The position numbers and the translations under genes were made by a program. The notes beneath the pieces were generated by a model, which was given only the letters and a program-made list of their open reading frames with translations, did no database searches and was not told where the DNA came from. DNA of 64,000 nt, taken from Halorubrum sp. GN11_10-6_MGM (lineage in GTDB: Archaea; Halobacteriota; Halobacteria; Halobacteriales; Haloferacaceae). Positions 31,867-55,616 of the stretch are shown in pieces (within the stretch, counting starts at the first letter, position 1; every line of letters starts with the position of its first letter). The stretch spans positions 1 to 64,000 of the forward strand of contig NZ_SGUC01000014.1 of NCBI RefSeq assembly GCF_005435165.1, read 5' to 3'.

Positions 31867-32160
31867 ATGGAATCAGCCGGGGGTATCTCGACTCGGCTCG
31901 CACAGCTCAAGCCGCGGCTCGAGCAGGAGTATCCGATCAGCGAGTTGGGTATCTTCGGGTCGTATGCCCGCGGTGAACAACAGTCAGACAGCGACTTCGA
32001 CGTCCTCGTCGGGTTCGAGCAGCCAGTGACGTTGTTCGATCTCGTGCGATTAGAAAACGAGCTGACGGATCAGCTCGGCGTCGAAGTCGACCTCGTGACG
32101 AAGGATTCGTTGAAACCACGGATCGAATCCCGAGTTGCCGACGATCTCGTCTTTGTATGA
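31867..32160 (+). CDS. mntA: MntA-type nucleotidyltransferase antitoxin
   Basis: The 97-residue minimal nucleotidyltransferase has the signature GIFGSYARGEQQSDSDFDVL (GSxARGE...SDxD) that coordinates metal and ATP. In MntA-HepT pairs the enzyme adds AMP to the HEPN toxin and blocks it. It is closely related to the gene at 58059-58349. The partner toxin gene, overlapping by ATGA, is cut short here, so the antitoxin is an orphan. Confidence 0.85.
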   Translation: MESAGGISTRLAQLKPRLEQEYPISELGIFGSYARGEQQSDSDFDVLVGFEQPVTLFDLVRLENELTDQLGVEVDLVTKDSLKPRIESRVADDLVFV

Positions 32161-33390: not shown

Positions 33391-33739
33391 ACGCTATACG
33401 TTTTTAGTCGTTGAGCCAGTCGAGACTGTTCCTGTCCGCGATCGCTTCGCGTATTCGAGTCACGATCGCCCGCGTGCTCACGAGTGGACGCGTGGCTGAC
33501 CTGAGAAACGACGGCTCTGCCTGCCCGGCGTCCAGTAGTGGATCGTCGGCAACGTTGCTTTCGAGGGATCTGGAGAACATAGTCTCCGAGAAACCATTGC
33601 CCGCAGTGCCGACCTTCGCGGGAATGAACTGTGATATACTGTGAGTGTGGTCATCACACTCTAACTAAGTTTAATATAATTGCCACGATAACAAATATTG
33701 ACGTCCGAAACAACCCCGATAAACGGAGAAGTCCCCAAC
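33391..33739. other. Intergenic region with a promoter that may drive the tRNA array
   Basis: No gene was seen. TTTAATATAA at 33670-33679 is a good archaeal TATA box facing right. It would start transcripts near 33705, upstream of the small gene at 33740 and, with no clear terminator seen, possibly the tRNA array and TROVE gene. Confidence 0.4.
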
Positions 33740-33922
33740 ATGGTCGACACTCGCCTCAAATCGCGGCGTGCTCGTTCTCGCTTAGCCGCGAGTCGCGTGT
33801 TTGGCGAGTCCCTACAAGACCAGCGTCCGGAGAAACCGAACGAGAATCACCGGGTCTGCGTCGCCATCGAATACGAGAGTGCGACGCACTCCGGCGATCT
33901 CCGGACACTCTCACCCGCATAA
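33740..33922 (+). CDS. Possible small basic protein at the head of the tRNA array
   Basis: The 60-residue frame MVDTRLKSRRARSRLAASRV has a ribosome-binding-like GGAG about ten bases before the ATG and a TATA box at 33670. The N-terminus is strongly basic and could bind nucleic acid. No homologue is recognised. It lies about 230 bases before the first tRNA. Confidence 0.4.
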   Translation: MVDTRLKSRRARSRLAASRVFGESLQDQRPEKPNENHRVCVAIEYESATHSGDLRTLSPA

Positions 33923-34152
33923 CCCGGCTCCCACGCGGACTACCCGTCAGGGGCTGGGGAACACGGGATTGCCGCCTGCGTTCGTCTAGTACTCGCTTGG
34001 CTCACAGCCACAGACGAGTACGACGATTGAGGCTCGCGGCAGTTTGGTCTGCGTTCGTTCCTGACTGTGGGACGAACGAGCGATGCTGTGCGTGCTGAAC
34101 GCACCAAGAGTCGCTGGTACGCGTTCCCGCAGCGATAGCTGCGGCTACGACA
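33923..34152. other. Intergenic stretch before the tRNA array
   Basis: No T-loop (GTTCGA/GTTCAA) or acceptor-stem pairing was found, and no gene. Several short inverted repeats exist, for example GCGATAGCTGCGGC near 34133-34145. Confidence 0.3.
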
Positions 34153-34228
34153 AGCCCCGGAGTCTCCGCTGGCGAGAGACGCCGGACTTTGAATCCGGAG
34201 GTCGCCGGTTCGATTCCGGCCGGGGCGA
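34153..34228 (+). tRNA. tRNA-Gln(TTG)
   Basis: D-stem GTCT/AGAC, anticodon stem CCGGA/TCCGG with loop CTTTGAA (anticodon 34189-34191) and T-stem GCCGG/CCGGC all pair. The acceptor AGCCCCG/CGGGGCG pairs except position 1-72. No CCA is encoded. It shares its D-arm with the tRNA-Glu at 35829. Confidence 0.8.
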
Positions 34229-34231
34229 CAT

Positions 34232-34304
34232 GCCGACGTAGTGTAATCGGCGATCATACGGTCCTGTCACGGCCGTGATCCGGGTTCAACTCCCGGCGTC
34301 GGCG
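34232..34304 (+). tRNA. tRNA-Asp(GTC)
   Basis: Acceptor GCCGACG/CGTCGGC is perfect, anticodon stem CGGTC/GGCCG has loop CTGTCAC, and the T-arm is CCGGG/CCCGG. It starts three bases after the tRNA-Gln, implying joint transcription and processing. Confidence 0.85.
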
Positions 34305-34554
34305 TGGTGCGTGGTGTTGCCACGTGGGGATACCCATCGAGGTAGGCAGCCCGTTGGTGCGATCATCCGGATCGTTCTCGCGGTGCTGGGCCCAGCAGGG
34401 TCTGTGACCTATCTGAGCCGGTGTGGTATTCCCGGGATCACCCGAAGTACGCCCCCGCGATGAGAAACGCAATCACGACTACTCGGTCGGGGTTGCGCAG
34501 TTGGAAACAGTCGTACAGAGAGAGAATCAACTGCCGAACGCTCGGCAGTTCCGT
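34305..34554. other. Gap in the tRNA array with strong inverted repeats
   Basis: No tRNA T-arm or gene was found. Two perfect inverted repeats stand out: TGCTGGGCCCAGCA (34384-34397) and the hairpin AACTGCCGA/TCGGCAGTT (34529-34537 and 34542-34550, loop ACGC). The hairpin ends five bases before the next tRNA and may be a processing or folding element of the polycistronic transcript. Confidence 0.45.
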
Positions 34555-34625
34555 GAGCCGAAGTCCAGCGGACGACATCTGTGCCTTGGACGCACAGGAC
34601 CGAGGTTCGACTCCTCGTCGACTCA
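34555..34625 (+). tRNA. tRNA-Pro(TGG)-like
   Basis: Anticodon stem TGTGC/GCACA with loop CTTGGAC and T-stem CGAGG/CCTCG are perfect. Acceptor GAGCCGA/TCGACTC has one C-A mismatch, and the D-stem is only three pairs (GTC/GAC). Confidence 0.7.
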
Positions 34626-34629
34626 GTGT

Positions 34630-34716
34630 GCCGCGACTGGGTATCAGGGAACCCAGCGGCCTGCTACGCCGTGGCCGTCTGCTATCGGTCTCCCGGTTCG
34701 AATCCGGGTCGTGGCG
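34630..34716 (+). tRNA. tRNA-Ser(GCT)
   Basis: Class II tRNA. Acceptor GCCGCGA/TCGTGGC has one G-U pair, D-stem is GGGT/ACCC, anticodon loop is CTGCTAC, the long variable arm is GGCCG/CGGTC, and T-stem is CCCGG/CCGGG. All arms fold. Confidence 0.85.
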
Positions 34717-34718
34717 TC

Positions 34719-34859
34719 ATGACAACGAATGTCTGTCCTGCCTGTGAGGAGGAAGCGTTCCGTCACGTCCAGCTCGGTGAAACAACGTCGATCGACACGA
34801 TTGGAAGCGTGAAAATCTGCGTCACCGATGACGGCACGTACTTCCACGGAACGAGGTGA
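34719..34859 (+). CDS. 46-residue zinc-binding-type protein inside the tRNA array
   Basis: The frame reads MTTNVCPACEEEAFRHVQLG, then continues to VKICVTDDGTYFHGTR. A CPAC knuckle plus one later Cys suggests metal binding, as in many haloarchaeal microproteins. It starts two bases after the tRNA-Ser(GCT) and is the only clear protein gene within the array. Function is unknown; it might be an RNA-binding accessory. Confidence 0.6.
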   Translation: MTTNVCPACEEEAFRHVQLGETTSIDTIGSVKICVTDDGTYFHGTR

Positions 34860-34988
34860 TTGCCATTTGTCCCTGTCCTGACTGGGTGCTGGTGAGCGCA
34901 TTCGCCTGGACAGTGATCAAAAGCTGAGCAATGGGCATCTTCCGGCGTCCTGTGAGTAACGCGAAGCGTGCTCATCGGAGTTTGTGCT

Positions 34989-35070
34989 GGTGAGGCATGC
35001 CGGTAAGCGACCGCGCTCGGTTAGAAACCGAGGGTCGCGAGGCTTCGGAGTTCGACTCTCCGTCTCACCG
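34989..35070 (+). tRNA. tRNA-Ser-like with anticodon AGA
   Basis: Acceptor GGTGAGG/TCTCACC (one G-U), anticodon stem CTCGG/CCGAG with loop TTAGAAA, and T-stem CGGAG/CTCCG pair well. The D-arm is degenerate and the variable region is 13 nt. An A34 anticodon is very unusual in archaea, so decoding function is doubtful. Confidence 0.6.
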
Positions 35071-35072
35071 TT

Positions 35073-35158
35073 GGCGGAGTTTCCCTAGCTTGGTCAAGGG
35101 ACTGCGTTGGAACCGCAGCGTCCGCGAGGACACGAGTGTTCAAATCGCTCTCCCGCCG
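35073..35158 (+). tRNA. tRNA-Ser(GGA)
   Basis: Class II: D-stem TCCC/GGGA, anticodon stem CTGCG/CGCAG with loop TTGGAAC, variable hairpin GTCC/GGAC, T-stem GAGTG/CGCTC. Acceptor GGCGGAG/TCCCGCC has one A-C mismatch. It begins two bases after the preceding tRNA-like gene. Confidence 0.78.
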
Positions 35159-35205
35159 CTGCGTGCCAACGTGATTCGCAGAGCCGTTGGTGATTTTCGA
35201 AGGAC

Positions 35206-35287
35206 GCCGCCATGCCAGAGTGGTCAAACGGACACGGTCGAGGACCGTGTGGGTAGTCCTTCCCAGGTTCGAATCCTGGTGGCGGCA
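35206..35287 (+). tRNA. tRNA-Leu(GAG)
   Basis: Acceptor GCCGCCA/TGGCGGC is perfect, anticodon stem CACGG/CCGTG has loop TCGAGGA, and the T-arm is CCAGG/CCTGG. It is class II with a 13-nt variable region. Position 33 is C instead of the near-universal T. Confidence 0.75.
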
Positions 35288-35329
35288 TCCAGCCATTATG
35301 TCGGGAGACAGTTCCCGATCAAACGTTGC

Positions 35330-35412
35330 GTCGCCATACCCAAGCGGTCAACGGGAAGCGGTTCAGACCCGCTGGCGTAGGTCCTTCCGAGGTTCGAATC
35401 CTCGCGGCGACA
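35330..35412 (+). tRNA. tRNA-Leu(CAG)
   Basis: Anticodon stem AGCGG/CCGCT with loop TTCAGAC, D-stem CCC/GGG, T-stem CGAGG/CCTCG and a class II variable region. Acceptor GTCGCCA/CGGCGAC pairs except the innermost A-C. Confidence 0.78.
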
Positions 35413-35415
35413 TTT

Positions 35416-35487
35416 CTCTCTGTGGTCTAGCGGCTACGATGCCTCCCTGTAGAGGAGGAGACGCACGTTCGAGTCGTGTCGGGGAGA
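35416..35487 (+). tRNA. tRNA-Tyr(GTA)-like
   Basis: Acceptor CTCTCTG/CGGGGAG pairs with three wobbles, anticodon stem CCTCC/GGAGG has loop CTGTAGA, and the T-stem is GCACG/CGTGT. The D-arm is weak. It starts four bases after tRNA-Leu(CAG). Confidence 0.68.
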
Positions 35488-35549
35488 CTGCGGGACGATG
35501 GAAGAGCCTGGTATTCACACTCTCGCCGAGTTTTCACCGGGGATCCGGT

Positions 35550-35616
35550 GCGACGGGGAGAGCTCCTTCATCTCACTTGTAATGGGAACACGCAGGTTCG
35601 AATCCTGCCCGTCCCA
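35550..35616 (+). tRNA. tRNA-Thr(TGT)-like, reduced D-arm
   Basis: Anticodon stem TCTCA/TGGGA with loop CTTGTAA and T-stem GCAGG/CCTGC are good. Acceptor GCGACGG/CCGTCCC has one mismatch, but only 12 nt remain for the D-arm. A second candidate 5' strand, GGGACGA at 35492, would add an insert that includes the hairpin CACCGG/CCGGTG (35535-35550). Confidence 0.55.
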
Positions 35617-35651
35617 CTGGCTGATGACCTCTTCGCAGGCGAGGCCAATTC

Positions 35652-35724
35652 GCTCCAGTGGAGTAGTGGCCAAACTCACGGCCCTCTCACGGCCGACCCC
35701 CCGGTTCGAATCCGGGCTGGAGCA
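35652..35724 (+). tRNA. tRNA-Glu(CTC)
   Basis: All arms are perfect: acceptor GCTCCAG/CTGGAGC, D-stem GAGT/ACTC, anticodon stem CGGCC/GGCCG with loop CTCTCAC, T-stem CCCGG/CCGGG. This is the cleanest tRNA in the array. Confidence 0.9.
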
Positions 35725-35736
35725 TGCGGATCCAGA

Positions 35737-35798
35737 GCCTATGCGGACAGGCAAGCGGCTTTAACCCTGATTGTGGGACGTTCGAGTCCTTCCCAGGC
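35737..35798 (+). tRNA. Degenerate tRNA-like sequence (anticodon unclear)
   Basis: It has a T-loop (GTTCGAGTCC) and partial acceptor pairing GCCTATG/CCCAGGC (five of seven). The anticodon region CGGCTTTAACCCTG pairs poorly; read literally the anticodon would be TTA, complementary to a stop codon. Probably a decayed or non-decoding tRNA-like RNA. Confidence 0.4.
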
Positions 35799-35828
35799 GC
35801 TTGGAACCACGAGTCCCATAGCGTTCAT

Positions 35829-35904
35829 GCTCCCGGAGTCTCCGTTGGCGAGAGACGCCAGCCCTTCAAGCTGGAGGCCAGGGGTTCGATCCCCCTCGGG
35901 AGCA
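35829..35904 (+). tRNA. tRNA-Glu(TTC)
   Basis: Acceptor GCTCCCG/CGGGAGC, D-stem GTCT/AGAC, anticodon stem CCAGC/GCTGG and T-stem AGGGG/CCCCT all pair. The loop is CCTTCAA, so position 33 is C. It is followed four bases later by a long hairpin. Confidence 0.82.
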
Positions 35905-35907
35905 CTC

Positions 35908-36002
35908 GGGGCTGACAGTGACAAACTCTCGTGTGACTATTGACTAGCTTGCAGGCAATAAGATGGAAACACGGGTCAGCGACGCTGTCACTGTCAGTCC
36001 CC
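35908..36002 (+). ncRNA. Long-stem hairpin RNA candidate next to the Y-like hairpin
   Basis: GGGGCTGACAGTGACA (35908-35923) pairs with TGTCACTGTCAGTCCCC (35986-36002), a 16-bp stem with one bulged base, closing a 62-nt interior. It fits exactly between tRNA-Glu(TTC) and the next hairpin. Its loop contains TTGCAGGC (35949-35956), complementary to GCCTGCAA (36038-36045) in the neighbouring hairpin loop. Confidence 0.5.
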
Positions 36003-36006
36003 CATG

Positions 36007-36098
36007 CGTGTGGTCGTCGAGGTGGTGCGTTCCTTCAGCCTGCAAAGCATCACACCGGGAGTCATAGCCCGTTGCACCATCCGTTTCACGACCACACG
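36007..36098 (+). ncRNA. Candidate Y-RNA-like hairpin upstream of the TROVE gene
   Basis: Outer stem CGTGTGGTCG/CGACCACACG has ten perfect pairs. Then come an internal loop TCGA/GTTTCA, an inner stem GGTGGTGC/GCACCA-T-CC with one bulged T, and a 45-nt loop. Stem, CGA-containing internal loop and bulged second stem follow the layout of the Ro-binding helix of animal Y RNAs. It lies 500 bases before a Ro60-family gene. The pairing is seen in the sequence; Y-RNA identity is inferred. Confidence 0.42.
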
Positions 36099-36164
36099 TG
36101 GCGACCGTCGAGTCGGGGCGCTGCTTCGCCCAGGAACACGCAGGTTCAAATCCTGTCGGTGGTA
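36091..36164 (+). tRNA. tRNA-like 3' domain abutting the Y-like hairpin
   Basis: The T-arm GCAGG/CCTGT with loop TTCAAAT is good, and a GGGCG/CGCCC hairpin stands in the anticodon place, but with a six-base loop. Acceptor ACCACAC/CGGTGGT pairs in only five positions, and its 5' strand is also needed by the Y-like stem. It may be a tRNA-mimic module rather than a tRNA. Confidence 0.4.
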
Positions 36165-36284
36165 CTATCCATCGAAAACATCCCGGACAAAGAGCGCACG
36201 AGGGTGCTCTCGACACCGGGTCCCGCTCCGACAGTTTTCCGGTCGCCATCACTCATCTCGTGGCCGTCGAGTTGGAGTCATCCG

Positions 36285-36329
36285 TCGCCTCAGGAGCCGG
36301 AAGTCCGGGTTCGAATCCCGGCGGTGGAA
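36285..36329 (+). tRNA. Isolated tRNA 3' half (T-arm and acceptor)
   Basis: T-stem CCGGG/CCCGG with loop TTCGAAT is followed by the acceptor strand CGGTGGA (36322-36328). No matching 5' strand was found upstream, but TCCACCG, an exact complement, starts about 20 bases downstream. See the 5' half at 36348. Confidence 0.5.
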
Positions 36330-36347
36330 TCCCACTGGTCCACCGTG

Positions 36348-36385
36348 GTGTAACCAGGTAGCACGCCGCTCTGGCTCCAGTAGTT
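36348..36385 (+). tRNA. tRNA 5' half, Trp(CCA)-like, downstream of its matching 3' half
   Basis: TCCACCG is followed by TG, a D-arm-like stretch (GTGTAACCAGGTAGCAC) and TCTGG-CTCCA, which reads as an anticodon stem and CCA anticodon. TCTGG can pair with CCGGA in the 3' half upstream. No T-arm follows in the right place. Confidence 0.35.
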
Positions 36386-36401
36386 TTCCGGCCACGTCCG
36401 T

Positions 36402-36532
36402 GTCTCCGTAGCTCAGGCAGGACAGAGCACCGTCAGAGCTTGCTCTGACGAGCCCTCGTTCGGGTCTTCGACCCTCATGAGGACACCGGCCTTCGAAGCC
36501 GGGTGTCGCACGTTCGAATCGTGTCGGAGACG
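36402..36532 (+). tRNA. tRNA-Arg(TCG) with a 56-nt structured insertion
   Basis: Acceptor GTCTCCG/CGGAGAC, D-stem GCTC/GAGC, anticodon stem CCGGC/GCCGG with loop CTTCGAA, and T-stem GCACG/CGTGT pair. Between position 26 and the anticodon stem lie bases 36430-36485, which fold into two hairpins: CGTCAGAGC/GCTCTGACG (loop TT) and GGGTC/GACCC (loop TTC). This could be an unusual intron or a duplicated arm. Confidence 0.65.
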
Positions 36533-36600
36533 TTCGCTGCTTACACTCCATGTGAGCAGCATCGGTATCGGAGTCGCCTGTTGCGGCTCCGGGTGATAGT

Positions 36601-38130
36601 ATGGAATTCAACAAGCCACAGCAAACGGTCGCGGAAGCGACGCGAACCACTAACTACGAGGGTGGGGAAGCGTTCGAGCCTGCCGACCCTCGACTCGCAC
36701 TGTACAAGCGCACGATCAACCAACTGCTGGAAGGCTCGTTCTACGAAAGCGATGATGAACAACTCGCGGCAGTCGTACAGCGCTTCGACGCTGCGGCAGA
36801 CGAGGATCCAGAATTCGTCTTGAAGCTCGCCGCGTACGCACGGCAAGAACTCTACCTGCGGGACATTCCACAGGTGTTGCTCGTACTGGCAGCCAACGAC
36901 GAGCGGTTCAAGGACGACTCTCCGGAGTCGCTTATCCGCGAATGGGCGCCGGCGATCATCCAGCGGATGGACGAAACGGCGACGGCGCTTGCCGTCCACG
37001 ACCAGTTGTTCGGCGGCACGGCCCCGTGGCCACTCCGCCGGGGGATCGAGGACGCGCTCGTGGCCATGGCTGACGCCTACACGCTCGGCAAGTACGAGCT
37101 GTCGCGCCGCGAGGTGACGCTCCACGACGTGTTCAACCGGGTCCACCCAGCACCCGTGGACGACGAGCAGGAGGCCCTGTTCGAGCGGTTCATGCGCGGC
37201 GACCTCGACGACTACCCCGACGTCGATCCGGTGGCCTCGCCAAACACGTGGGAGACGGTCATTTCCGAGCGCGGCAACACCCGAGACGCGTGGGAGACGC
37301 TCATCGAGGACGATGCGTACACGCTCCCGATCTTCGCGTCGATCCGGAACCTTCGGAACATGCTCGAGGCTGGCGTCGACGAGGACACTATCGTCGACCA
37401 CCTCGATCTGGAGGCGGTGCGACACGCGCCGTTGTACCCGTTCGGGTACTACCAAGCGTACACCGCGCTACAGGAAGCGGACATCCACGCACCCGCCGTC
37501 GAACAGTGGCTGGAATCCGCTATCGACGTCGCAGTCGAGACTGTCCCTGCCGGCTTCGGCGACACGTTCGTTGCCGTGGACCTGTCGGGATCGATGGACC
37601 ACCCGCTGTCCACGAACAGCACGCTGCGACTCAAAGAGATTGGCGCGCTGTTCGGTGCGATTCTGGCCGACCAAGGTGCCCAAGTCGGCGGGTTCGGAGA
37701 CGACTTCCAGACCGTTCCGATGCACGTCGACACGCCAGTCCTCCAGCGTCAAGACGCAGTGCTGGCCATCGACGAGGGTGTCGGCAATTCGACGAACGGC
37801 TGGAAGGCAATCGATCACCTCCGCGAGCGAGGTGAGCCCGTTGAGCGCATCGTCGTCTTTACCGACATGCAGATCTGGGACAGCACGCCGTTCATGGCGC
37901 GCGATTCCCAGACCGTCAAGTCGGCGTTCGATGCCTACCAAGCGGAGGTCGCTACAGACACGGCGTTGTATCTCGTCGACCTTGCCGCCTACGGCGATCT
38001 GGTAACACCGGAAGGCTACGAGAACGTCTACAATATCTCTGGCTGGACGGAAAACGTGCTCACGTTCATCAAGCACGCTGAGAAGCCGTCACAGGTTCTC
38101 GACGACATCGACGCAGTCGAGCCTGAATAA
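36601..38130 (+). CDS. TROVE/vWA-domain Ro60-family RNA-binding protein
   Basis: The 509-residue protein has an N-terminal helical-repeat TROVE domain (about 10-320), then a von Willebrand A domain with the MIDAS motif DLSGSM (327-332) and FTDMQIW (about 420-426). This is the Ro60/Rsr architecture. The ring binds Y RNAs and misfolded small RNAs, and helps RNA quality control by exonucleases. Length and both domains are complete. It starts 70 bases after the last upstream tRNA, and another tRNA follows 25 bases downstream, so it is embedded in the array. RtcB was not seen nearby. Confidence 0.9.
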   Translation: MEFNKPQQTVAEATRTTNYEGGEAFEPADPRLALYKRTINQLLEGSFYESDDEQLAAVVQRFDAAADEDPEFVLKLAAYARQELYLRDIPQVLLVLAANDERFKDDSPESLIREWAPAIIQRMDETATALAVHDQLFGGTAPWPLRRGIEDALVAMADAYTLGKYELSRREVTLHDVFNRVHPAPVDDEQEALFERFMRGDLDDYPDVDPVASPNTWETVISERGNTRDAWETLIEDDAYTLPIFASIRNLRNMLEAGVDEDTIVDHLDLEAVRHAPLYPFGYYQAYTALQEADIHAPAVEQWLESAIDVAVETVPAGFGDTFVAVDLSGSMDHPLSTNSTLRLKEIGALFGAILADQGAQVGGFGDDFQTVPMHVDTPVLQRQDAVLAIDEGVGNSTNGWKAIDHLRERGEPVERIVVFTDMQIWDSTPFMARDSQTVKSAFDAYQAEVATDTALYLVDLAAYGDLVTPEGYENVYNISGWTENVLTFIKHAEKPSQVLDDIDAVEPE

Positions 38131-38154
38131 TCTGGTTCTCTCATTTTTTACCAG

Positions 38155-38227
38155 GCGCGAGTGGTGGCGTTCGGTACCACGCGGTCCTGCCACGACCGAG
38201 ACGGGCGTTCGAATCGTCTCTCGCGCA
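38155..38227 (+). tRNA. tRNA-Gly(GCC)
   Basis: Acceptor GCGCGAG/CTCGCGC, D-stem GTGG/CCAC, anticodon stem CGGTC/GACCG with loop CTGCCAC and T-stem GGGCG/CGTCT (two wobbles) all pair. It lies just after the TROVE gene, with a T-rich run (ATTTTTTA, 38143-38150) between them. Confidence 0.88.
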
Positions 38228-38286
38228 CTCGGAGCACAGTTCTGGACTAATCAGCCCATGCGGTACTCCTCCACGGAGATGGTAGA

Positions 38287-38580
38287 ATGGCTGTAATCAA
38301 TCCCAACGTCTCAGCTTCGACGACAACTGCTATCATGACGATCCGTATCCCTTGTGGCGCAGACGGTAATCTCGTCACCGACGCCGAAGACCGTCTCTCG
38401 CAGACAGCAGCTGTCGATGACGTACTAATTGACGAACTCCACAGCATTGAGCCGAAACTGTCGGCAACGGTCATTACCGTTGAAGTCGCGCTTCGTTGGA
38501 CGACGACAATGACTCAAGGAGAGATCAGAGACCGACTTGCCGAGGTTCCGGGCCTTGAGTCGATCCAACGAATCGGATAA
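38287..38580 (+). CDS. Small protein of unknown function after the TROVE gene
   Basis: The 97-residue protein is one alpha/beta domain with no recognised motif (TIRIPCGADGNLVTDAEDRL to GLESIQRIG). GGAGATGG upstream could serve as ribosome-binding site. A second in-frame Met at 38335 would give 81 residues and a more compact start. Its position after TROVE and tRNA-Gly suggests it belongs to the same unit. Confidence 0.5.
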   Translation: MAVINPNVSASTTTAIMTIRIPCGADGNLVTDAEDRLSQTAAVDDVLIDELHSIEPKLSATVITVEVALRWTTTMTQGEIRDRLAEVPGLESIQRIG

Positions 38581-38654: not shown

Positions 38655-38707
38655 GCCTCGCGCTTCAGCGCAGGGAGGATGTCAATGCGGGCGGGGAGGA
38701 TGTCAAT
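38655..38707 (+). mobile_element. Solo right end of an IS1341-type element, terminal part duplicated
   Basis: CTCGCGCTTCAGCGCAGGGA plus GGATGTCAAT matches the 3' end of the TnpB element at 54123-55616. The last 13-14 bases are repeated at 38693-38707. No tnpB is attached. The stop codon of the adjacent hepT gene lies inside this end sequence. Confidence 0.6.
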
Positions 38708-39131
38708 CTCCGGATTTGACCCACGTTGCGATCTGGCGGCTGTATGTATCGTACACGCCGAGTCCGGTTTGGAGTGTTTCATACACCTTGTCACCATCAA
38801 CATGCCCGTACTCGTGGGCGAGGACGTTCCTGAACCCGATCGCTGCGACGAGCGTCGTCGCGGTCGCCTCGTCGATGACTCCCTCGCGATGTAACACACG
38901 AACCGCCTCCTTCGTCGTCCTTCCGTCATATCCAAAATCCCGCGTCGCGATGTGTTGGGCGAGATCCGAACACGCTTGAATCGCGTTCTCGAACATTCGC
39001 TCGACGGCGCGCTGTTCGGTCGTACTCTGGTGAAACTCGTCACGAGAGAGTGTTTCCCGCTTCTCGACTAGTTCACCGTAGTACTGCTCGATCTGCTCAA
39101 GTTTGATCGCGACGACTCGCTCATCAGCCAC
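38703..39131 (-). CDS. hepT: HepT/HEPN-family toxin
   Basis: The 142-residue helical HEPN protein has the ribonuclease motif RNVLAHEY (R-x4-H) at about residues 100-107. HepT toxins cleave RNA and are held inactive by AMP added by MntA. It overlaps the upstream mntA gene by eight bases, the normal order for this pair here. Its C-terminus borders an IS right-end remnant, so the last residues may be altered. Confidence 0.88.
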   Translation of the reverse strand: MADERVVAIKLEQIEQYYGELVEKRETLSRDEFHQSTTEQRAVERMFENAIQACSDLAQHIATRDFGYDGRTTKEAVRVLHREGVIDEATATTLVAAIGFRNVLAHEYGHVDGDKVYETLQTGLGVYDTYSRQIATWVKSGD

Positions 39132-39555
39132 GGAGGCCGTCCTCCGCGATTCGGTCGATCACGGCATGCTGCCGGCGGCGAAGGTCGTCACGTTGATCAC
39201 CGAACCGCGCTTCGATCTCCGTTTTGAACCGGTCGAAAGCGTCCGCATCGCCGCAGACGAACGTCCCCTTCACGGCATCATGGGCCACGGCAAGGGGAAG
39301 CGACTCGATATCGGACAGGTCAACGAACGGTAGATCGTCTTGCTGAAGATCTCCAGACAAAAAACATTGCTTCTCGAACCGTTCGGCTTCGGAGAGATCG
39401 TCGGAAAACTTCACAGCGAGATCGAGATCGGATGCCTGAGTCGACTCACCGGTGATTCGTGATCCAAACACCACCGCGAACTCAACGTCGTCGACGGCAC
39501 ACACCGACGCTTCGAGGACGGTCAACGGCTCCGTACTTCCGTCATCGGCGGTCAT
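39124..39555 (-). CDS. mntA: MntA-type nucleotidyltransferase antitoxin
   Basis: The 143-residue nucleotidyltransferase has the active-site motif VVFGSRITGESTQASDLDLA (GSxxTGE...SDLD). It presumably adds AMP to the adjacent HEPN toxin. It overlaps hepT. The C-terminal helical part, to about residue 140, is of usual length. Confidence 0.88.
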   Translation of the reverse strand: MTADDGSTEPLTVLEASVCAVDDVEFAVVFGSRITGESTQASDLDLAVKFSDDLSEAERFEKQCFLSGDLQQDDLPFVDLSDIESLPLAVAHDAVKGTFVCGDADAFDRFKTEIEARFGDQRDDLRRRQHAVIDRIAEDGLRG

Positions 39556-39639
39556 ATCCGAGCAGACGGCGTATCGTCACAAAAGAATTCCGCCCAGCCG
39601 AACTGGCTGTAATCTGCCCTCCAGCGTGAGTACAGGGGA

Positions 39640-39790
39640 TACGCAAGCCGTGGACAGTCCGAAGCGAACAGATTTCGAAGATGTGCTCCACCTGTCTCTC
39701 TCCTCCGAGGAACGACTTACCACGGACAGACTCGAGAGATACGGCACGTAACTCGAAGTCGAGGACTACGATGTATCAGCGGACAAGCGT
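39640..39790 (+). pseudogene. Fragment of a nucleotidyltransferase gene like the one at 53986
   Basis: One frame reads KRTDFEDVLHLSLSSEERLT, then TDRLERYGT, stop, LEVEDYD. This matches the C-terminal KDFEDALHLYLTFEERFNME...LGVEDYYDE of the split gene at 53986-56091. The rest of the gene is missing and the frame holds a stop, so it is a decayed paralogue. Confidence 0.7.
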
Positions 39791-39834
39791 GCTAGTAGAT
39801 AGGCGGCCGTTGTGATCATCACCTGTACTGTCGC

Positions 39835-40269
39835 TCAGTGATCGAGAGACGTTCGGACTTCACGACAGAAGACCGGAAACCACTGGAGGTCGTGTTGAAG
39901 ATGGGCATACACCTGTTCATCGTCCAGATCACCTCCGTAGTTGTGTGCGAGCACATTACGAAATCCGGCCGCTGCTCCCATTCGAGCCGCCGTCTCCTCA
40001 GAGAGCACGTCCTGTTGTTCGAGCTGATCGAACTTTTCGGCGTTGGTGGGAGGCATTTCTTCAGTCGAATCCCGAATGAGCAGCTCGGCGATGTCGATAC
40101 AAGCTTCGATGGCAACCTGGAATTCTCGTTCAACGATCGCCTGCTGTTCTCGATCGGCGAGATACTCCTCGCGTTCGAGTGACCGTTTTTGAGCGAGTAG
40201 CTTCGTTGCTTCCGTCACAAACTCGACTTTGTCGACAATTCGGTCGATCGTCTCTCCGTTATGCGCCAA
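39835..40269 (-). CDS. hepT: HepT/HEPN-family toxin
   Basis: The 144-residue HEPN protein has the catalytic motif RNVLAHNYG near residue 103. It overlaps the mntA gene upstream by 11 bases. Second complete MNT/HEPN pair in a row on this strand. Confidence 0.88.
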   Translation of the reverse strand: MAHNGETIDRIVDKVEFVTEATKLLAQKRSLEREEYLADREQQAIVEREFQVAIEACIDIAELLIRDSTEEMPPTNAEKFDQLEQQDVLSEETAARMGAAAGFRNVLAHNYGGDLDDEQVYAHLQHDLQWFPVFCREVRTSLDH

Positions 40270-40699
40270 CCGTATCCTCCATCTCCGTTAACAGATCGTC
40301 AAACCGGGCGAGCTGGTCGTCTCGGGTATCTTCCGGTGTTCGGTCACTGAAACGCTGTTGTAGCTGATCGGCTCGCCGGGAGTTCCCGACGAGAAGGACG
40401 CCACCTTGGAGGGCCGCCACTCCGATCTCTGGTCGCACTCCATCGAGATCGATCACGTCGACATCATTTGTCCCGAGTTCACGTGTCAGATCCGCGATCA
40501 CGTTGAGGCGAGCGCGGCGTCTATGCTCCGGCGAAAGTTCCTCATCGAACTCGACGGCGACATCTACATCGCTTTCAGCATGCGTCTTCCCAGTCACCTG
40601 CGAGCCGAAGAGGATACCGAGTCGAATCGGATACCGCTGGAGGACGCCACGGACCGCCTCGTCGTCGATCGCGTCTCCATCAGCGGCATCAGAAGCCAT
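40259..40699 (-). CDS. mntA: MntA-type nucleotidyltransferase antitoxin
   Basis: The 146-residue nucleotidyltransferase has LGILFGSQVTGKTHAESDVD, the GSxxTG...SDxD active site. The downstream overlapping hepT is the partner. The protein is only distantly similar to the neighbouring mntA, so the pairs are not recent tandem duplicates. Confidence 0.88.
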   Translation of the reverse strand: MASDAADGDAIDDEAVRGVLQRYPIRLGILFGSQVTGKTHAESDVDVAVEFDEELSPEHRRRARLNVIADLTRELGTNDVDVIDLDGVRPEIGVAALQGGVLLVGNSRRADQLQQRFSDRTPEDTRDDQLARFDDLLTEMEDTVGA

Positions 40700-45344: not shown

Positions 45345-46730
45345 TTGACCTCCTCCTCCGCGTGAACGCGGAGGAATCCCACCACGGGATTTCAGGCCAA
45401 GCGAAGCGGCCTGTTGGTTTCAAGACGCATACGTTCCAAGCGTCGTCTGCTGGTTTTCAGCATCGGCTTGACTGTCTTGTGGCCCGGTCAAAGAGGCCCC
45501 ATCCGTAGCCGAGTCATCGTCACCGGCCTTCTGCCGGGAAGCCCGGTCGCTTCGGCGGTGACTCTCTCCACTACAGTAGCGGTCTGTAATGTTTATCGCC
45601 CCGTTCACATCGGCTTGATACTCACCGACCCAACAGTCGTCGTTCGAGCAGCTGAACGTTGCCTGTCGTGGTCGGGAGCCGTGTTCACCGCAAGCGTGGC
45701 ACGCTTTCGACGTGTTGCGGGGATTCACCGTTGCGATGGGAATCCCCTTCTCAGCGGCTTTGTACCGAATCTGTGCGTGGAGTTTGGCAAAGCCCCACCC
45801 GTGCAACCGCCGGTTCATGTATTCGCTGTAGTCCATGTTCTCGCGGATGTACGTCAAGTCTTCCAGCACCAGTACCGGGTTCTCGACAGACTCGGCATAC
45901 TCCACGACCTCGCGTGTCACACGGTGAAACACATCGTCAATCTGGTCCCACAGTGCGTCACCGTAAGACTCTGCGATTCGCTCACTGCCGCGCTTCTGAA
46001 GGCGTCTCTTGGCGGTGAAGTGGGTTTTGCGGAGCCGACGAACGGCTTTGCCGTCGTCGGCCCACAGGCGGGGGCGAACCGGAGAATCGCACTCGTCGCG
46101 GTGACACACCGTGACGAGACTCGCTTCTCCGATGTCCACACCTATCGGTGTCCGCTCATCGGCGGACGCTGCAGATTTGTCCTCCACGTCGCGGGTGGCG
46201 GTGACGTGGAGATACCACGTCCCATCGCGCTCGAACAGCCGACTTTCACCCATCTTGGCGTCGTCTGCGTACAACGCTTCGAGCCAATCCCGTTGGTCGG
46301 GATTGGCGCGTGCCGGAATCCAGAGGTGGTAATCCTCGTGGTGCGGGATTTTGACGTACCATTCGATTGCGTTCTGTGGCTGGTGGTCGAGTTGCAGTCC
46401 CTCGTTGGTGAACCGCACCGGGTGGTCGTCGTGAAGCTCGTCGGCGTCGTAGCTGTTGTGGAGTTGTGGGACGTACTGCTTGAGGGCGTTTTTCGCGTAG
46501 CCGCTCAGGTCGTACTCGACAACCACGTCGTTGGCTCGGGACTGTGTGTCACAGCCAGCGGCGAACGCGGCCTGAAGCGCCTGCTGGTAGGTATCTTGTG
46601 TCTCACGAAGCTTCTGTCGCTTGTGGGCGTTGGGGTCCACAAGTTTCAGTTCGAGCGTCTTCGTGAGTTTTCCCATCGTTGCCGTGCACTATCGGTCGGT
46701 TGTGATCGGCATATAATTCAGCCATCCGGA
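45345..46730 (-). mobile_element. IS1341-type element with tnpB only
   Basis: The tnpB gene is followed at its 3' end by a CTCCGCG/CGCGGAG hairpin (45360-45377) and the end sequence AGGTCAATATC on the minus strand. This is the usual guide-RNA scaffold. No tnpA is present. The left end near 46730 is approximate. Confidence 0.65.
45420..46676 (-). CDS. tnpB: TnpB-family RNA-guided endonuclease
   Basis: The 418-residue protein has RuvC-I PIGVDIGEASLVTVC, RuvC-II LVLEDLTYIRENM and a zinc ribbon CHACGEHG plus CSNDDC, with the final Asp in YQADVNGAINI. All three acidic residues are present. It belongs to a different haloarchaeal TnpB group from the one at 16132. Confidence 0.88.
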   Translation of the reverse strand: MGKLTKTLELKLVDPNAHKRQKLRETQDTYQQALQAAFAAGCDTQSRANDVVVEYDLSGYAKNALKQYVPQLHNSYDADELHDDHPVRFTNEGLQLDHQPQNAIEWYVKIPHHEDYHLWIPARANPDQRDWLEALYADDAKMGESRLFERDGTWYLHVTATRDVEDKSAASADERTPIGVDIGEASLVTVCHRDECDSPVRPRLWADDGKAVRRLRKTHFTAKRRLQKRGSERIAESYGDALWDQIDDVFHRVTREVVEYAESVENPVLVLEDLTYIRENMDYSEYMNRRLHGWGFAKLHAQIRYKAAEKGIPIATVNPRNTSKACHACGEHGSRPRQATFSCSNDDCWVGEYQADVNGAINITDRYCSGESHRRSDRASRQKAGDDDSATDGASLTGPQDSQADAENQQTTLGTYAS

Positions 46731-54122: not shown

Positions 54123-55616
54123 TGAGAATGAGGAGAAAGCCTCGCGCTTTAGCGCGGGGATGAATCCGACACCACCCTTCGTAGTCCACCGTTCGGTGAT
54201 ACGGTTGGATATTCCTCGCTCCTCGAATCCAAGCCTTCAAGTTAGTTTGTTTATATAGGTTACGTATGGCGAAAAAGGTCGTCACCCGCACCTACTCTGC
54301 TTCCATACGGAACCAGTCTCGGGTGCGAGATGATCTCGATTCGCTCGGGTTTGCCGCCTCGAAACTCTGGAACGTCGGACGGTGGACGTGTGGTCGGATC
54401 TGGGATGAGATCGATCACATCCCCAACCACAACGAACTCACCACGTACCTCAAAACCCACGAACGCTACGATGACCTGCATTCGCAGTCAAGTCAGCGAG
54501 TCATTCAAGAACTTGCTGAAGCGTTCAACGGTTGGTACGGTAAACGACGCAATGGGGACACGAAAGCGAACCCGCCCGGCTACCGCAAACACGGTGACGA
54601 ACACCCACGAAGCACGGTGACGTTCAAAGCCGCTGGCTTCAAACTCGACACTCAGTACAACCGTGTTCGGCTCTCAAAAGGGTCAAATCTCAAAGAATAT
54701 TGGTCGGACTTCATCCTCTGTGAGTACCAGACTCGCCCCGACGTTGATCTCTCGACCGTCGAGAACGTCCAACAGGTTCGGACAGTTTGGACGGGTGAGG
54801 AATGGGAACTACACTTCGTCTGTAAGGTCGAACTCGACGTGGCTGAAGCCCCCGGTGAGAAGACCGTTGGTGTTGACCTCGGGATCAACAACTTCGCCGC
54901 GCTTGCCTATGAAGACGGCCACAGCGCGCTGTATCCGCTGAACTGTCTGAAGCAGGACGACTACTACTTCAGCAGGCAGATCGCCCAGTGCGATGACTCC
55001 AACTCCGAGCAGGCTAGCCGGCTGAATCAAAAGAAGTCGGCTCGTCGCACCCACTATTTCCATACGCTCTCGAAACATATTGTTGAACGGTGTGTTGAGG
55101 AAGGCGTTGGAACGATCGTAGTGGGAGATCTCTCGGGGATCCGCGAAGACCATAACACTAACGAGTCGAAAAACTGGGGAAGACACGGCAACCTCGACTT
55201 GCACTCGTGGGCATTCGACCGGTTTACCGACCTCCTCGAATACAAGGCGGAGATGGACGGAATCACCGTCGAAGAAGCCTCCGAGGAGAACACGTCGAAG
55301 TCGTGTTCGTGTTGCGGTCGCAAGCGTGATGCGAACCGTGTTGAACGCGGGTTGTACGTCTGTGACGAGTGCGGAACGACGGCAAACGCAGACGTGAACG
55401 GAGCCGAGAACATTCGACAGAAAGTATCTCCGAGTTCACCGAGTTTGTCGGTGAATAGGAGTAACGGCTGGTTGGCACAGCCATCGACGTTCCTGTTTGA
55501 CAAGGAAACTGGCGCATTCGCGCCTCAAGAACAGGTAACATCGTAAACCACAATATCCCAACCCAGCGGCGCGGTGCCGTGGGAATCCTCGCGCTTCAGC
55601 GCGGGGAGGATGTCAA
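54123..55616 (+). mobile_element. IS1341-type element (tnpB only) inserted after TTAC
   Basis: Both ends are fixed by the interrupted gene. The left flank ends in TTAC (54119-54122) and the element starts TGAGAATGAGGAG. The right end is the CGCGCTTCAGCGCG hairpin plus GGGGAGGATGTCAA. A similar hairpin, CGCGCTTTAGCGCG, lies near the left end. TTAC is the known target of IS608-type elements. No target duplication, as expected. Confidence 0.88.
54266..55546 (+). CDS. tnpB: TnpB-family protein lacking the usual RuvC-II glutamate
   Basis: The 426-residue protein has RuvC-I VGVDLGINNFAALAYEDG and the zinc ribbon CSCCGRKR and CDECGTTANADVNGAENI, with the final Asp. The RuvC-II segment is TIVVGDLSGIRED: Gly stands where other TnpB proteins here have the catalytic Glu (VEDL or FEQL). 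The protein may be inactive, or use a shifted Glu such as that in GIRED. The gene is otherwise full length. Confidence 0.85.
   Translation: MAKKVVTRTYSASIRNQSRVRDDLDSLGFAASKLWNVGRWTCGRIWDEIDHIPNHNELTTYLKTHERYDDLHSQSSQRVIQELAEAFNGWYGKRRNGDTKANPPGYRKHGDEHPRSTVTFKAAGFKLDTQYNRVRLSKGSNLKEYWSDFILCEYQTRPDVDLSTVENVQQVRTVWTGEEWELHFVCKVELDVAEAPGEKTVGVDLGINNFAALAYEDGHSALYPLNCLKQDDYYFSRQIAQCDDSNSEQASRLNQKKSARRTHYFHTLSKHIVERCVEEGVGTIVVGDLSGIREDHNTNESKNWGRHGNLDLHSWAFDRFTDLLEYKAEMDGITVEEASEENTSKSCSCCGRKRDANRVERGLYVCDECGTTANADVNGAENIRQKVSPSSPSLSVNRSNGWLAQPSTFLFDKETGAFAPQEQVTS

Follow-up and report, generated by a model that had tools for sequence, protein, structure and literature searches.

The locus described here raises the question of why a gene for a Ro60-family protein lies inside a tightly packed tRNA array in a haloarchaeon, and what the odd, tRNA-like members of that array are. 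Work on Ro60-Y RNA particles has dealt with animals and a handful of bacteria, and there is no agreement on what the particles originally did. The array belongs to a 64,000-nucleotide stretch of Halorubrum sp. GN11_10-6_MGM (contig NZ_SGUC01000014.1, positions 1 to 64,000; the window), and its features are collected in Table 1. The locus is probably a mobile haloarchaeal cassette with tRNAs of its own, a gene for a Ro60 protein and several Y RNAs to go with that protein.

Table 1. Features of the array and its flanks (window coordinates)
Feature	Position	Strand	Evidence
Structured leader (RNA of no assigned type), upstream of first tRNA	33733..34152	+	conservation, RNAalifold
tRNA-Gln(TTG)	34153..34229	+	ARAGORN, Rfam 42.7 bits
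tRNA-Asp(GTC)	34231..34305	+	ARAGORN, Rfam 58.4 bits
Conserved ~250-nt spacer, probably structured RNA	34306..34553	+	found in 44 arrays
tRNA-Pro(TGG)	34554..34626	+	ARAGORN, Rfam
tRNA-Ser(GCT)	34629..34718	+	ARAGORN
46-aa ORF (MTTNVCPACEEEAFRHV..)	34719..34859	+	sequence, Ser-Ser spacer alignment
tRNA-Ser(AGA; most relatives TGA)	34988..35071	+	ARAGORN, array comparison
tRNA-Ser(GGA)	35073..35159	+	ARAGORN
tRNA-Leu(GAG)	35206..35287	+	ARAGORN, Rfam
tRNA-Leu(CAG)	35330..35412	+	ARAGORN, Rfam
tRNA-Tyr(GTA)	35416..35488	+	ARAGORN, Rfam
tRNA-Thr(TGT)-like element	35492..35616	+	Rfam 30.7 bits
tRNA-Glu(CTC)	35652..35724	+	ARAGORN, Rfam
Decayed tRNA; Lys/Asn at same place in relatives	35735..35801	+	sequence, array comparison
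tRNA-Glu(TTC)	35829..35905	+	ARAGORN, Rfam
Y-RNA-like hairpin Y-c	36008..36097	+	model R1 79.2 bits (1 of 21 build sequences); fold z -4.35
Y-RNA-like hairpin Y-b	36099..36248	+	R1 59.4 bits, outside build set; fold z -3.97
Y-RNA-like hairpin Y-a	36258..36397	+	R1 44.1 bits, outside build set; fold z -3.14
tRNA-Arg(TCG); 56-nt insert of two hairpins, 36432-36487	36402..36532	+	Rfam 32.5 bits, 3' part
Ro60-family protein, TROVE + vWA, 509 aa	36601..38130	+	Pfam PF05731 71 bits, PDB profile
tRNA-Gly(GCC)	38155..38228	+	ARAGORN
97-aa protein, conserved third cassette gene	38287..38580	+	tblastn, AF2

The Ro60-family gene and its tRNA array

The array (34153-38228, plus strand) holds at least 12 tRNAs. 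ARAGORN placed 12 there, all on the plus strand, and none elsewhere in the 64 kb, while the Rfam tRNA model at its gathering cut-off gave 10, including the Thr-like (35550-35616) and Arg (36464-36532) genes that ARAGORN missed; most of the tRNA folds were not rejected. Gaps between genes go down to 1-3 nt (34229/34231, 35071/35073, 35412/35416), and the density of about 3 per kb (12 ARAGORN tRNAs in 4.08 kb) lies within the definition of a tRNA gene cluster given in PMC6333295 (at least 10 tRNA genes, at least 2 per kb). A preliminary description of this DNA had counted about 17 packed tRNAs or tRNA-like sequences; the dense packing stands, whereas three of the odd members are Ro-stem hairpins. 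Linkage of TROVE genes to such arrays in relatives, set beforehand as a test, was found across haloarchaeal genera. The same tRNA order recurs in some 45 loci of many genera, so the array is far from a chance assembly, and the layout is kept on plasmids as well as chromosomes, with up to 31 tRNA genes in arrays of this kind. The array tRNAs are 52-73% identical to tRNAs of the same anticodon in their own genome (part of the own-genome set compared) and redundant with about 44 other tRNAs of that genome.

The TROVE/vWA gene, described earlier as complete and lying inside the array, is indeed an intact ORF between tRNA-Arg and tRNA-Gly, and the sole one of its kind in the genome. Its PF05731 score far exceeds the cut-off of 23 bits, indicating a TROVE (HEAT-repeat ring) domain, and PDB profiles matched 9kop (E 8e-48), 9l5y (phiLo Ro60; 7.9e-48) and 1yvp (4e-6). 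Foldseek returned 9kop, 9l5y, 1yvp and 2nvo with a predicted model whose TROVE half is of low confidence; the HEAT half is poorly modelled (mean pLDDT 61), and it is the PDB sequence matches that carry weight. The vWA MIDAS residues (DxSxS..T..D; D327, S329, S331, T398 and D422) are invariant in 24 relatives, and Pfam vWA_Ro60 scored 25.2 bits, slightly below its cut-off of 27.7.

That no such archaeal system had been described proved true only in part. Morgado and Vicente (2019; PMC6333295) already list the same clusters (e.g., Haloarcula argentinensis AOLX01000027, Halogranum rubrum FOTC01000006, Halorubrum ezzemoulense NEDJ01000026), record the mobile-element context of haloarchaeal tRNA clusters, and state in one sentence that 20 of 29 archaeal tRNA clusters hold a TROVE gene; in the available text of that survey the link is left uninterpreted, some members appear as tRNA pseudogenes, and Ro60 or Y RNA function, the hairpins and the 97-aa gene do not figure. 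What appears to be new is that the odd tRNA-like members mostly form a distinct conserved RNA family without an Rfam entry, and Y RNAs in archaea seem to be without prior description. Part of what is listed as pseudogenes in haloarchaeal tRNA clusters may be hairpins of this kind.

A hairpin family resembling Y RNAs

The odd members had been taken for degenerate tRNAs, which fits one of them, the decayed tRNA between the two tRNA-Glu genes, but most belong to the hairpin family. Y-a, Y-b and Y-c share a common plan: outer stem, UCGAG, 8-bp inner stem and UUCCUUC, with NRUUUUC on the 3' strand, the internal loop having 5 and 8 nt. Among 83 elements CGAG occurs in 79 and CGAA in four. In 21 short elements, which like all those counted for covariation were preselected for pairing, 98.3% of cells are paired and two-sided changes affect 14 of 20 pairs, with a covariation score of 0.525 against 0.137 in shuffled and at most 0.08 in slid alignments; the 83-row alignment gives the same picture. 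Such covarying stems imply that selection acts on the hairpin RNA. Y-a is arranged as Ro stem, T arm, closed acceptor stem and D arm, which is the topology of bacterial YrlA with its permuted tRNA-like module; covariation extends over its Ro stem, T arm and acceptor (97.1% of cells paired), with two-sided changes in the latter two. Y-b has a T-arm-like hairpin in its interior, and the tRNA-like part is small or absent in many hairpins, among them Y-c and Y-d of the window.

Y RNAs have ends that pair as a long stem with an internal loop around a variable interior, carry a CGA-bearing strand in the Ro site and are encoded beside the Ro60 gene. The first is seen here, the second in a form similar but not identical to known sites, and the third in all 43 genomes with a near-full-length TROVE gene, so that the identity of the hairpins as Y RNAs has good support at the sequence level. 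The Ro-site strand reads GGUCCGAAG in human and GNCGAAN0-1G in bacterial Y RNAs, and GGCGAAUG in an Rfam-called YrlA at one of the loci compared (L116). Rfam itself returned only tRNA and chance matches for the odd array members, with no Y RNA or YrlA match at a useful score, and the YrlA model RF02553 (cut-off 69 bits) did not match Y-a. The vertebrate site, a 7-bp helix with a single bulged C and an opposite 3-nt bulge (PMC4726728), is not matched by loops of 5 and 8 nt; bacterial Y RNAs are likewise described as highly divergent from those of vertebrates.

Lodged between the D and anticodon arms of the tRNA-Thr-like element is a hairpin (35520-35569) that is a Ro stem in circularly permuted form and, judged by sequence, a fourth copy of the Y-RNA-like hairpin. 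The same geometry recurs in about 30 further loci, with one match in the downstream control and none on the reverse strand. The insert in tRNA-Arg is absent from most relatives, where the gene is uninterrupted, and a similar one occurs in several. When checked by eye for bulge-helix-bulge motifs, the Arg insert was two plain hairpins and the Thr insert had the Ro-stem geometry. We tentatively entertain the thought that some tRNA-shaped genes of these arrays are tRNA-Y RNA chimeras: the acceptor end would be open and the body would bear the Ro60-binding stem, as in a circular permutation of YrlA, and particular tRNAs would be physically held by Ro60. If so, the chimeras and the stand-alone Y RNAs would make up an archaeal, virus-borne, tRNA-dedicated Ro60 system, and the permuted form would show the tRNA origin of YrlA-type Y RNAs.

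Co-occurrence with TROVE genes in haloarchaea, viruses and bacteria

Of 391 haloarchaeal genomes, 43 gave matches at E <= 1e-5 to a covariance model (R1) trained on the 21 short elements. These are precisely the genomes that have a near-full-length TROVE gene, and the 348 others gave none (Fisher 2e-58); five TROVE remnants are without an R1 element. A motif scan gave 64 hairpins in the 200 kb that precede TROVE genes; 421 kb of downstream sequence contained one, the reverse strand none, and shuffled sequences 0-1. Hairpins are retained beside TROVE genes of just 49-53% identity (L089-L091). The R1 scan misses a below-threshold copy on an IMG/VR contig (L025), recognised by eye from the motif. 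Joint inheritance as a single cassette could explain part of the co-occurrence. The earlier proposal that the array supplies both tRNAs and Ro ligands gains support at the sequence level from this exact pairing. It is very unlikely that the locus is a plain tRNA supplement, a mobile cluster aiding codon supply with TROVE and hairpins as hitchhikers: tRNA clusters are indeed widespread on mobile elements (PMC6333295, PMC6409571), but the array tRNAs are redundant with the host set, the stems covary, and the RNA-TROVE pairing persists even in two loci (L021, L087) where ARAGORN finds no tRNA.

Nearly all hairpins precede TROVE by no more than about 1 kb, share its strand and are co-directional with the array, as they would if they acted in cis, either in a TROVE mRNA leader through which Ro60 regulates its own synthesis or as processing signals of the array. 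We consider this unlikely, since the diverged copies number as many as five in an array, with one of them inside a tRNA and others 2-5 kb upstream, close to tRNA-Tyr, and the YrlA topology is that of a known Y RNA. Furthermore, halovirus HGTV-1, which has both a TROVE gene and a tRNA array, has its R1 match (45708-45785, E 6.6e-5) between two tRNA-Leu genes of the array, some 20 kb away from TROVE, and in phiLo a weak candidate hairpin lies 3' of the TROVE gene. Copies in HGTV-1 beside TROVE and tRNA-Asp are below the R1 threshold and were recognised from the motif by eye. The tRNA-Asp 'intron' of this virus resembles a permuted Ro stem by eye (GCGAT..GGAAGCG-TTACTTC) but was missed by a relaxed scan and is not counted as one; the tRNA-Ala intron bears no resemblance. 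HGTV-1 is not the close source of the array tRNAs, with best matches of only 52-70%.

R1 had no match in ten bacterial or phage TROVE loci, and the bacterial link is therefore drawn from weak R1 matches and a motif scan, in which five of seven hairpins in 17 bacterial or phage TROVE loci lay close to TROVE (p 2.6e-4). Y-a shares its topology with an Rfam-confirmed YrlA encoded next to TROVE in Rhizobium. In the bacterial systems known from the Deinococcus Rsr/Y RNA/PNPase particle (RYPER) and the rsr-yrlBA-rtcBA operon, a Ro60-family gene likewise neighbours RNAs whose long stem has an internal loop bearing CGA. Compared with the bacterial Ro60-Y RNA particles, the haloarchaeal system has an archaeal host, up to five RNAs per locus and a place inside a tRNA array, while neither PNPase nor rtcBA was seen in the cassette and Rfam models gave no match. 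TROVE genes with nearby tRNAs and candidate hairpins also occur in phiLo, Streptomyces phage Quantum, Rhizobium phage RHph_Y65, crAss-like phages and HGTV-1, although the phages viewed have few tRNAs near TROVE; the phiLo Ro60 (9l5y) ranks among the nearest structures solved. Borg extrachromosomal elements, likewise mobile and archaeal, count TROVE among their core genes and carry 5-23 tRNAs in each genome, and no Y RNAs are reported for them in PMC11208441.

Possible roles and other parts of the cassette

We infer a role for the Y RNAs in tRNA or RNA surveillance, perhaps with counter-defence. Ro60 would grip the conserved internal-loop stem (UCGAG / NRUUUUC) of Y-a, Y-b and Y-c and of the permuted copy in the tRNA-Thr-like element, while their variable ends, tRNA-like in Y-a and partly so in Y-b, might dock an RNA-processing partner such as the exosome, a 3' exonuclease or an enzyme that matures or repairs tRNAs. 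The protein ring would then take misfolded, cut or unprocessed tRNAs of array and host towards decay or repair, and so, as we propose, keep a working tRNA pool for the element, possibly while tRNA-cutting defences deplete those of the host.

Compatible with surveillance rather than opposed to it, though somewhat doubtful, is the notion that tRNA-like RNAs, held and protected by Ro60, serve mainly as bait for, or inhibitors of, tRNA-cutting host nucleases, while diverged tRNAs resist these and sustain translation. The low identity and redundancy of the array tRNAs, the carriage of the cassette by plasmids and a halovirus, and the neighbouring toxin-antitoxin genes favour it; moreover, escape of phage tRNAs from tRNA-cutting defences is documented or proposed (PMC10264068, PMC11555353), and the tRNA-like domain of YrlA has been suggested to inhibit an anticodon nuclease by competition (PMC7790460). 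Against such decoys speak the many hairpins with little or no tRNA-like part, and no tRNA-cutting defence is linked to the cassette.

With the preferred reading of a Ro60 cassette, archaea would have a Ro60 system spread over many genera, in every case with its RNAs and, with few exceptions, within a tRNA array on mobile DNA, and its YrlA-like and permuted tRNA-like forms would tie Ro60 to tRNAs more directly than bacterial operons do. It would offer one new RNA family, dozens of natural variants of a candidate Ro60-binding stem and tractable genetic hosts, e.g., Haloferax via plasmid transfer.

Other parts of the cassette are conserved as well. The leader, with no Rfam family matched, has a mean identity of 78% across 39 arrays, and RNAalifold gave it 63 pairs, 24 with two-sided changes; the spacer has such changes in 12 of 32 consensus pairs. 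The 46-aa ORF, whose ATG adjoins the end of tRNA-Ser, is kept in relatives. The 97-aa protein has no family in Pfam, PHROGs or PADLOC; its predicted model (AF2 pLDDT 78.5) has a ferredoxin-like fold with PDB matches to DUF211 and aEF1B too weak to be of use. By tblastn it occurs at 44 loci (33-100% identity), with few exceptions directly 3' of the cassette. HepT/MNT toxin-antitoxin genes adjoin the array in the window.

The tRNA array, its TROVE gene and their relatives

Twelve tRNAs, all on the + strand, were called by ARAGORN between positions 34153 and 38228 and none in the remainder of the 64-kb window; Rfam supplements these with a Thr-like and an Arg tRNA, confirming the array of the preliminary description. 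At least 44 further tRNAs lie outside it in the same genome, and the array is therefore largely redundant. Its members share only 52-73% identity with own-genome tRNAs of the same anticodon, as judged from a partial own-genome set. The TROVE gene inside the array is indeed complete: the ORF is intact, scores 71 bits against Pfam TROVE, and is the sole copy in the genome. Profile searches match its product to the Ro60 structures 9kop and 9l5y (phiLo Ro60), with E values of 8e-48 and 7.9e-48, and more weakly to 1yvp (4e-6) and Rsr (2nvo; 4.5e-5). Fold comparison likewise leads to Ro60 structures, and the MIDAS residues are invariant.

Relatives of this protein occur across many haloarchaeal genera at 75-95% identity, while others reach about 50% and that of halovirus HGTV-1 43%. 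Nearly all close relatives share one array layout of up to 31 tRNAs, in the order Gln-Asp-Pro-Ser-Ser-Ser-Leu-Leu-Tyr-Glu-Lys-Asn-Glu-Arg, then TROVE, then Gly, on plasmids (Natrinema, Haloplanus, Halobaculum, Halosimplex) and on chromosomes; the TROVE-array linkage, for which a search in relatives had been suggested, is thus conserved. The cassette is real and widespread. The claim that nothing of the kind had been described holds in part. These haloarchaeal tRNA clusters were described by Morgado & Vicente, with TROVE mentioned in 20/29 and given no functional reading in the text examined (PMC6333295). The TROVE-array link was thus previously recorded. Apparently new are the putative Y RNAs with their exact co-occurrence with TROVE, the permuted copy, and the third gene; a non-exhaustive literature search found no papers on archaeal Y RNAs.

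Features of the cassette and its surroundings (fold z relative to shuffles)
Feature	Position	Remarks
HepT-like RNase/nucleotidyltransferase pairs (two) and one lone nucleotidyltransferase	38703-40699, 31867-32160	on array flanks; RNA cleavage is a possible activity of HEPN toxins
Leader before tRNA-Gln	33733-34152	ca. 400 nt; highly conserved (78% in 39 arrays)
tRNA-Asp/tRNA-Pro spacer	34306-34553	ca. 250 nt; in 44 arrays; 12/32 consensus pairs covarying
46-aa Cys-bearing (CPAC) protein	34719-34859	ATG abuts tRNA-Ser(GCT); conserved in relatives
Thr-like element	35492-35616	insert between D arm and anticodon arm
Hairpin Y-c	36008-36097	in tRNA-Glu/tRNA-Arg gap; fold z -4.35
Hairpin Y-b	36099-36248	same gap; fold z -3.97
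Hairpin Y-a	36258-36397	same gap; fold z -3.14
tRNA-Arg(TCG) insert	36432-36487	56 nt, two hairpins, between D arm and anticodon arm
TROVE ORF	36601-38130	
Third gene, 97 aa		downstream of cassette; matches in 44 loci
sot0042 (sense overlapping transcript RNA)	55422-55607	Rfam, 165.8 bits

A family of Y-RNA-like hairpins

The hairpins were first spotted by comparing the 215 nt upstream of TROVE across loci. Their parts recur in a fixed order: an outer stem, then UCGAG and an inner stem, an interior that is tRNA-like or of another kind, and finally the inner strand, NRUUUUC and the outer strand. A strict motif scan counted 64 of them in 200 kb upstream of TROVE; the controls gave one in 421 kb downstream, none for the reverse strand and 0-1 in shuffled sequence. 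Anchoring the scan yielded 118 elements from 53 loci. Their geometry hardly varies (inner stem of 8 bp; internal-loop strands of 5 and 8 nt), and the inner stem is directly followed by a third motif, either UUCCUUC or AUACUUC. Across 21 short elements, bases pair in 98.3% of pair cells and two-sided changes affect 14 of 20 pairs; covariation scores 0.525, compared with 0.137 after shuffling and no more than 0.08 after sliding. Across 83 rows that cover all classes, CGA never varies, CGAG hardly does, and the paired share of cells is 98%. Choosing elements for pairing inflates these figures; it explains neither the slide control to such a degree nor the location bias. Interiors differ by class: many Y-c hairpins hold a T-arm hairpin alone, and the Y-d class has no tRNA-like part.

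R1, a covariance model built from the 21 elements, matched 43 of 391 haloarchaeal genomes at E <= 1e-5, exactly the 43 with near-full-length TROVE (Fisher p 2e-58, inflated by linkage within one cassette). It gave no match in five genomes that have TROVE fragments or match TROVE weakly; five TROVE-less genomes gave marginal matches alone (E 1.8e-4 to 9e-3). More telling than the p value are two loci with TROVE and hairpins in which ARAGORN finds no tRNAs (L021, L087), and three with about 50% TROVE identity and different tRNAs that keep the hairpins (L089-L091). HGTV-1 has a single significant match genome-wide (E 6.6e-5), and it falls exactly between two tRNA-Leu genes of the viral array.

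The ends of Y RNAs pair into a stem whose internal loop is gripped by Ro60, and variable interiors bind effectors (PMC4726728). Beside the TROVE gene of a Rhizobium plasmid Rfam calls YrlA, a bacterial Y RNA with a tRNA-like module, in which we read by eye from the sequence Ro stem (the looped stem), T arm, closed acceptor stem, D arm, and Ro stem. Y-a has the same order of parts; its D arm carries standard tRNA landmarks, and its acceptor and T arm have changed two-sidedly across 12 relatives. From architecture, motif and linkage, we consider it likely that the hairpins are Y RNAs and the cassette of the Ro60-Y RNA kind. They matched neither the Y RNA nor the YrlA models of Rfam, and differ from vertebrate Y RNAs in lacking the exact Ro site of vertebrates. 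Weak R1 matches adjoin the TROVE genes of Thermus phage phiLo and Deinococcus taeanensis, and a motif scan of 17 bacterial and phage TROVE loci placed 5 of 7 matches near TROVE (p 2.6e-4), two of them in tandem before the gene in Deinococcus gobiensis. Because of these matches AUACUUC/UUCCUUC may characterise prokaryotic Y RNAs in general, which we offer as a lead only.

Y-a could adopt either of two folds, since it contains two GGAG(C/U)C copies that are each able to pair with one and the same 3' strand. In its counterpart in locus L023 solely the first copy changed in step with that strand.

The permuted copy and other structured stretches

The Thr-like element does look degenerate, as the preliminary description held of some array members, because its insert separates D arm and anticodon arm. 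This appearance is due to a circularly permuted Ro stem: inner strand, NAGUUUUC, outer strand, a 4-nt loop, then outer strand, GCGAC, inner strand, and UUCCUUC. A dedicated scan found 34 such stems in 33 loci, one downstream and none on the reverse strand; of these 34, the ones in L023 and L083 span adjacent hairpins and are likely to be spurious. Locus L089, whose TROVE identity is 52%, carries two that differ in their stems. The tRNA-Asp of HGTV-1 (L026:7022-7153) has an annotated 'intron' that contains GCGAT..GGAAGCG-TTACTTC and by eye resembles a permuted Ro stem; just before it lies a motif hairpin (L026:6940-7020).

The leader before tRNA-Gln has 24 consensus pairs with two-sided covariation and matched no Rfam family; it is reminiscent, as a further structured RNA, of the large RNAs adjoining phage tRNAs. 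Inserts of the tRNA-Arg type occupy the same site in several arrays (e.g. L059, L079, L010, L085, L024) and are absent from the rest. Many longer arrays (ca. 20 loci) include a gene for a 134-aa protein (e.g. L027:10866-11270) that matched no PHROGs family.

Putative working of the cassette

Cassette, conservation, RNA family and co-occurrence are direct observations; the working is modelled on Ro60 biology. Ro60 would hold the Y RNA stem on the outside of its ring; misfolded RNA would enter the ring with its single-stranded ends, and an enzyme would be brought in by the interior of the Y RNA. In Deinococcus this enzyme is PNPase (PMC4726728); archaea would rely on a different one, for example the exosome, an RNB enzyme or an RNase J enzyme. 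Provided that the hairpins are Y RNAs, our tentative first choice is tRNA surveillance, since a dense, diverged tRNA array is the constant companion. On the same proviso, counter-defence against tRNA cutting comes second, as a rather unlikely reading that is compatible with tRNA surveillance; general stress RNA decay ranks third.

The 97-aa product of the third gene has a predicted ferredoxin-like fold and weakly resembles DUF211 and aEF1B; the gene may belong to the Ro60 system. On the Allomeiothermus silvanus plasmid (L112) a gene for an RNB-domain ribonuclease, a possible Ro60 partner, lies directly 3' of TROVE.
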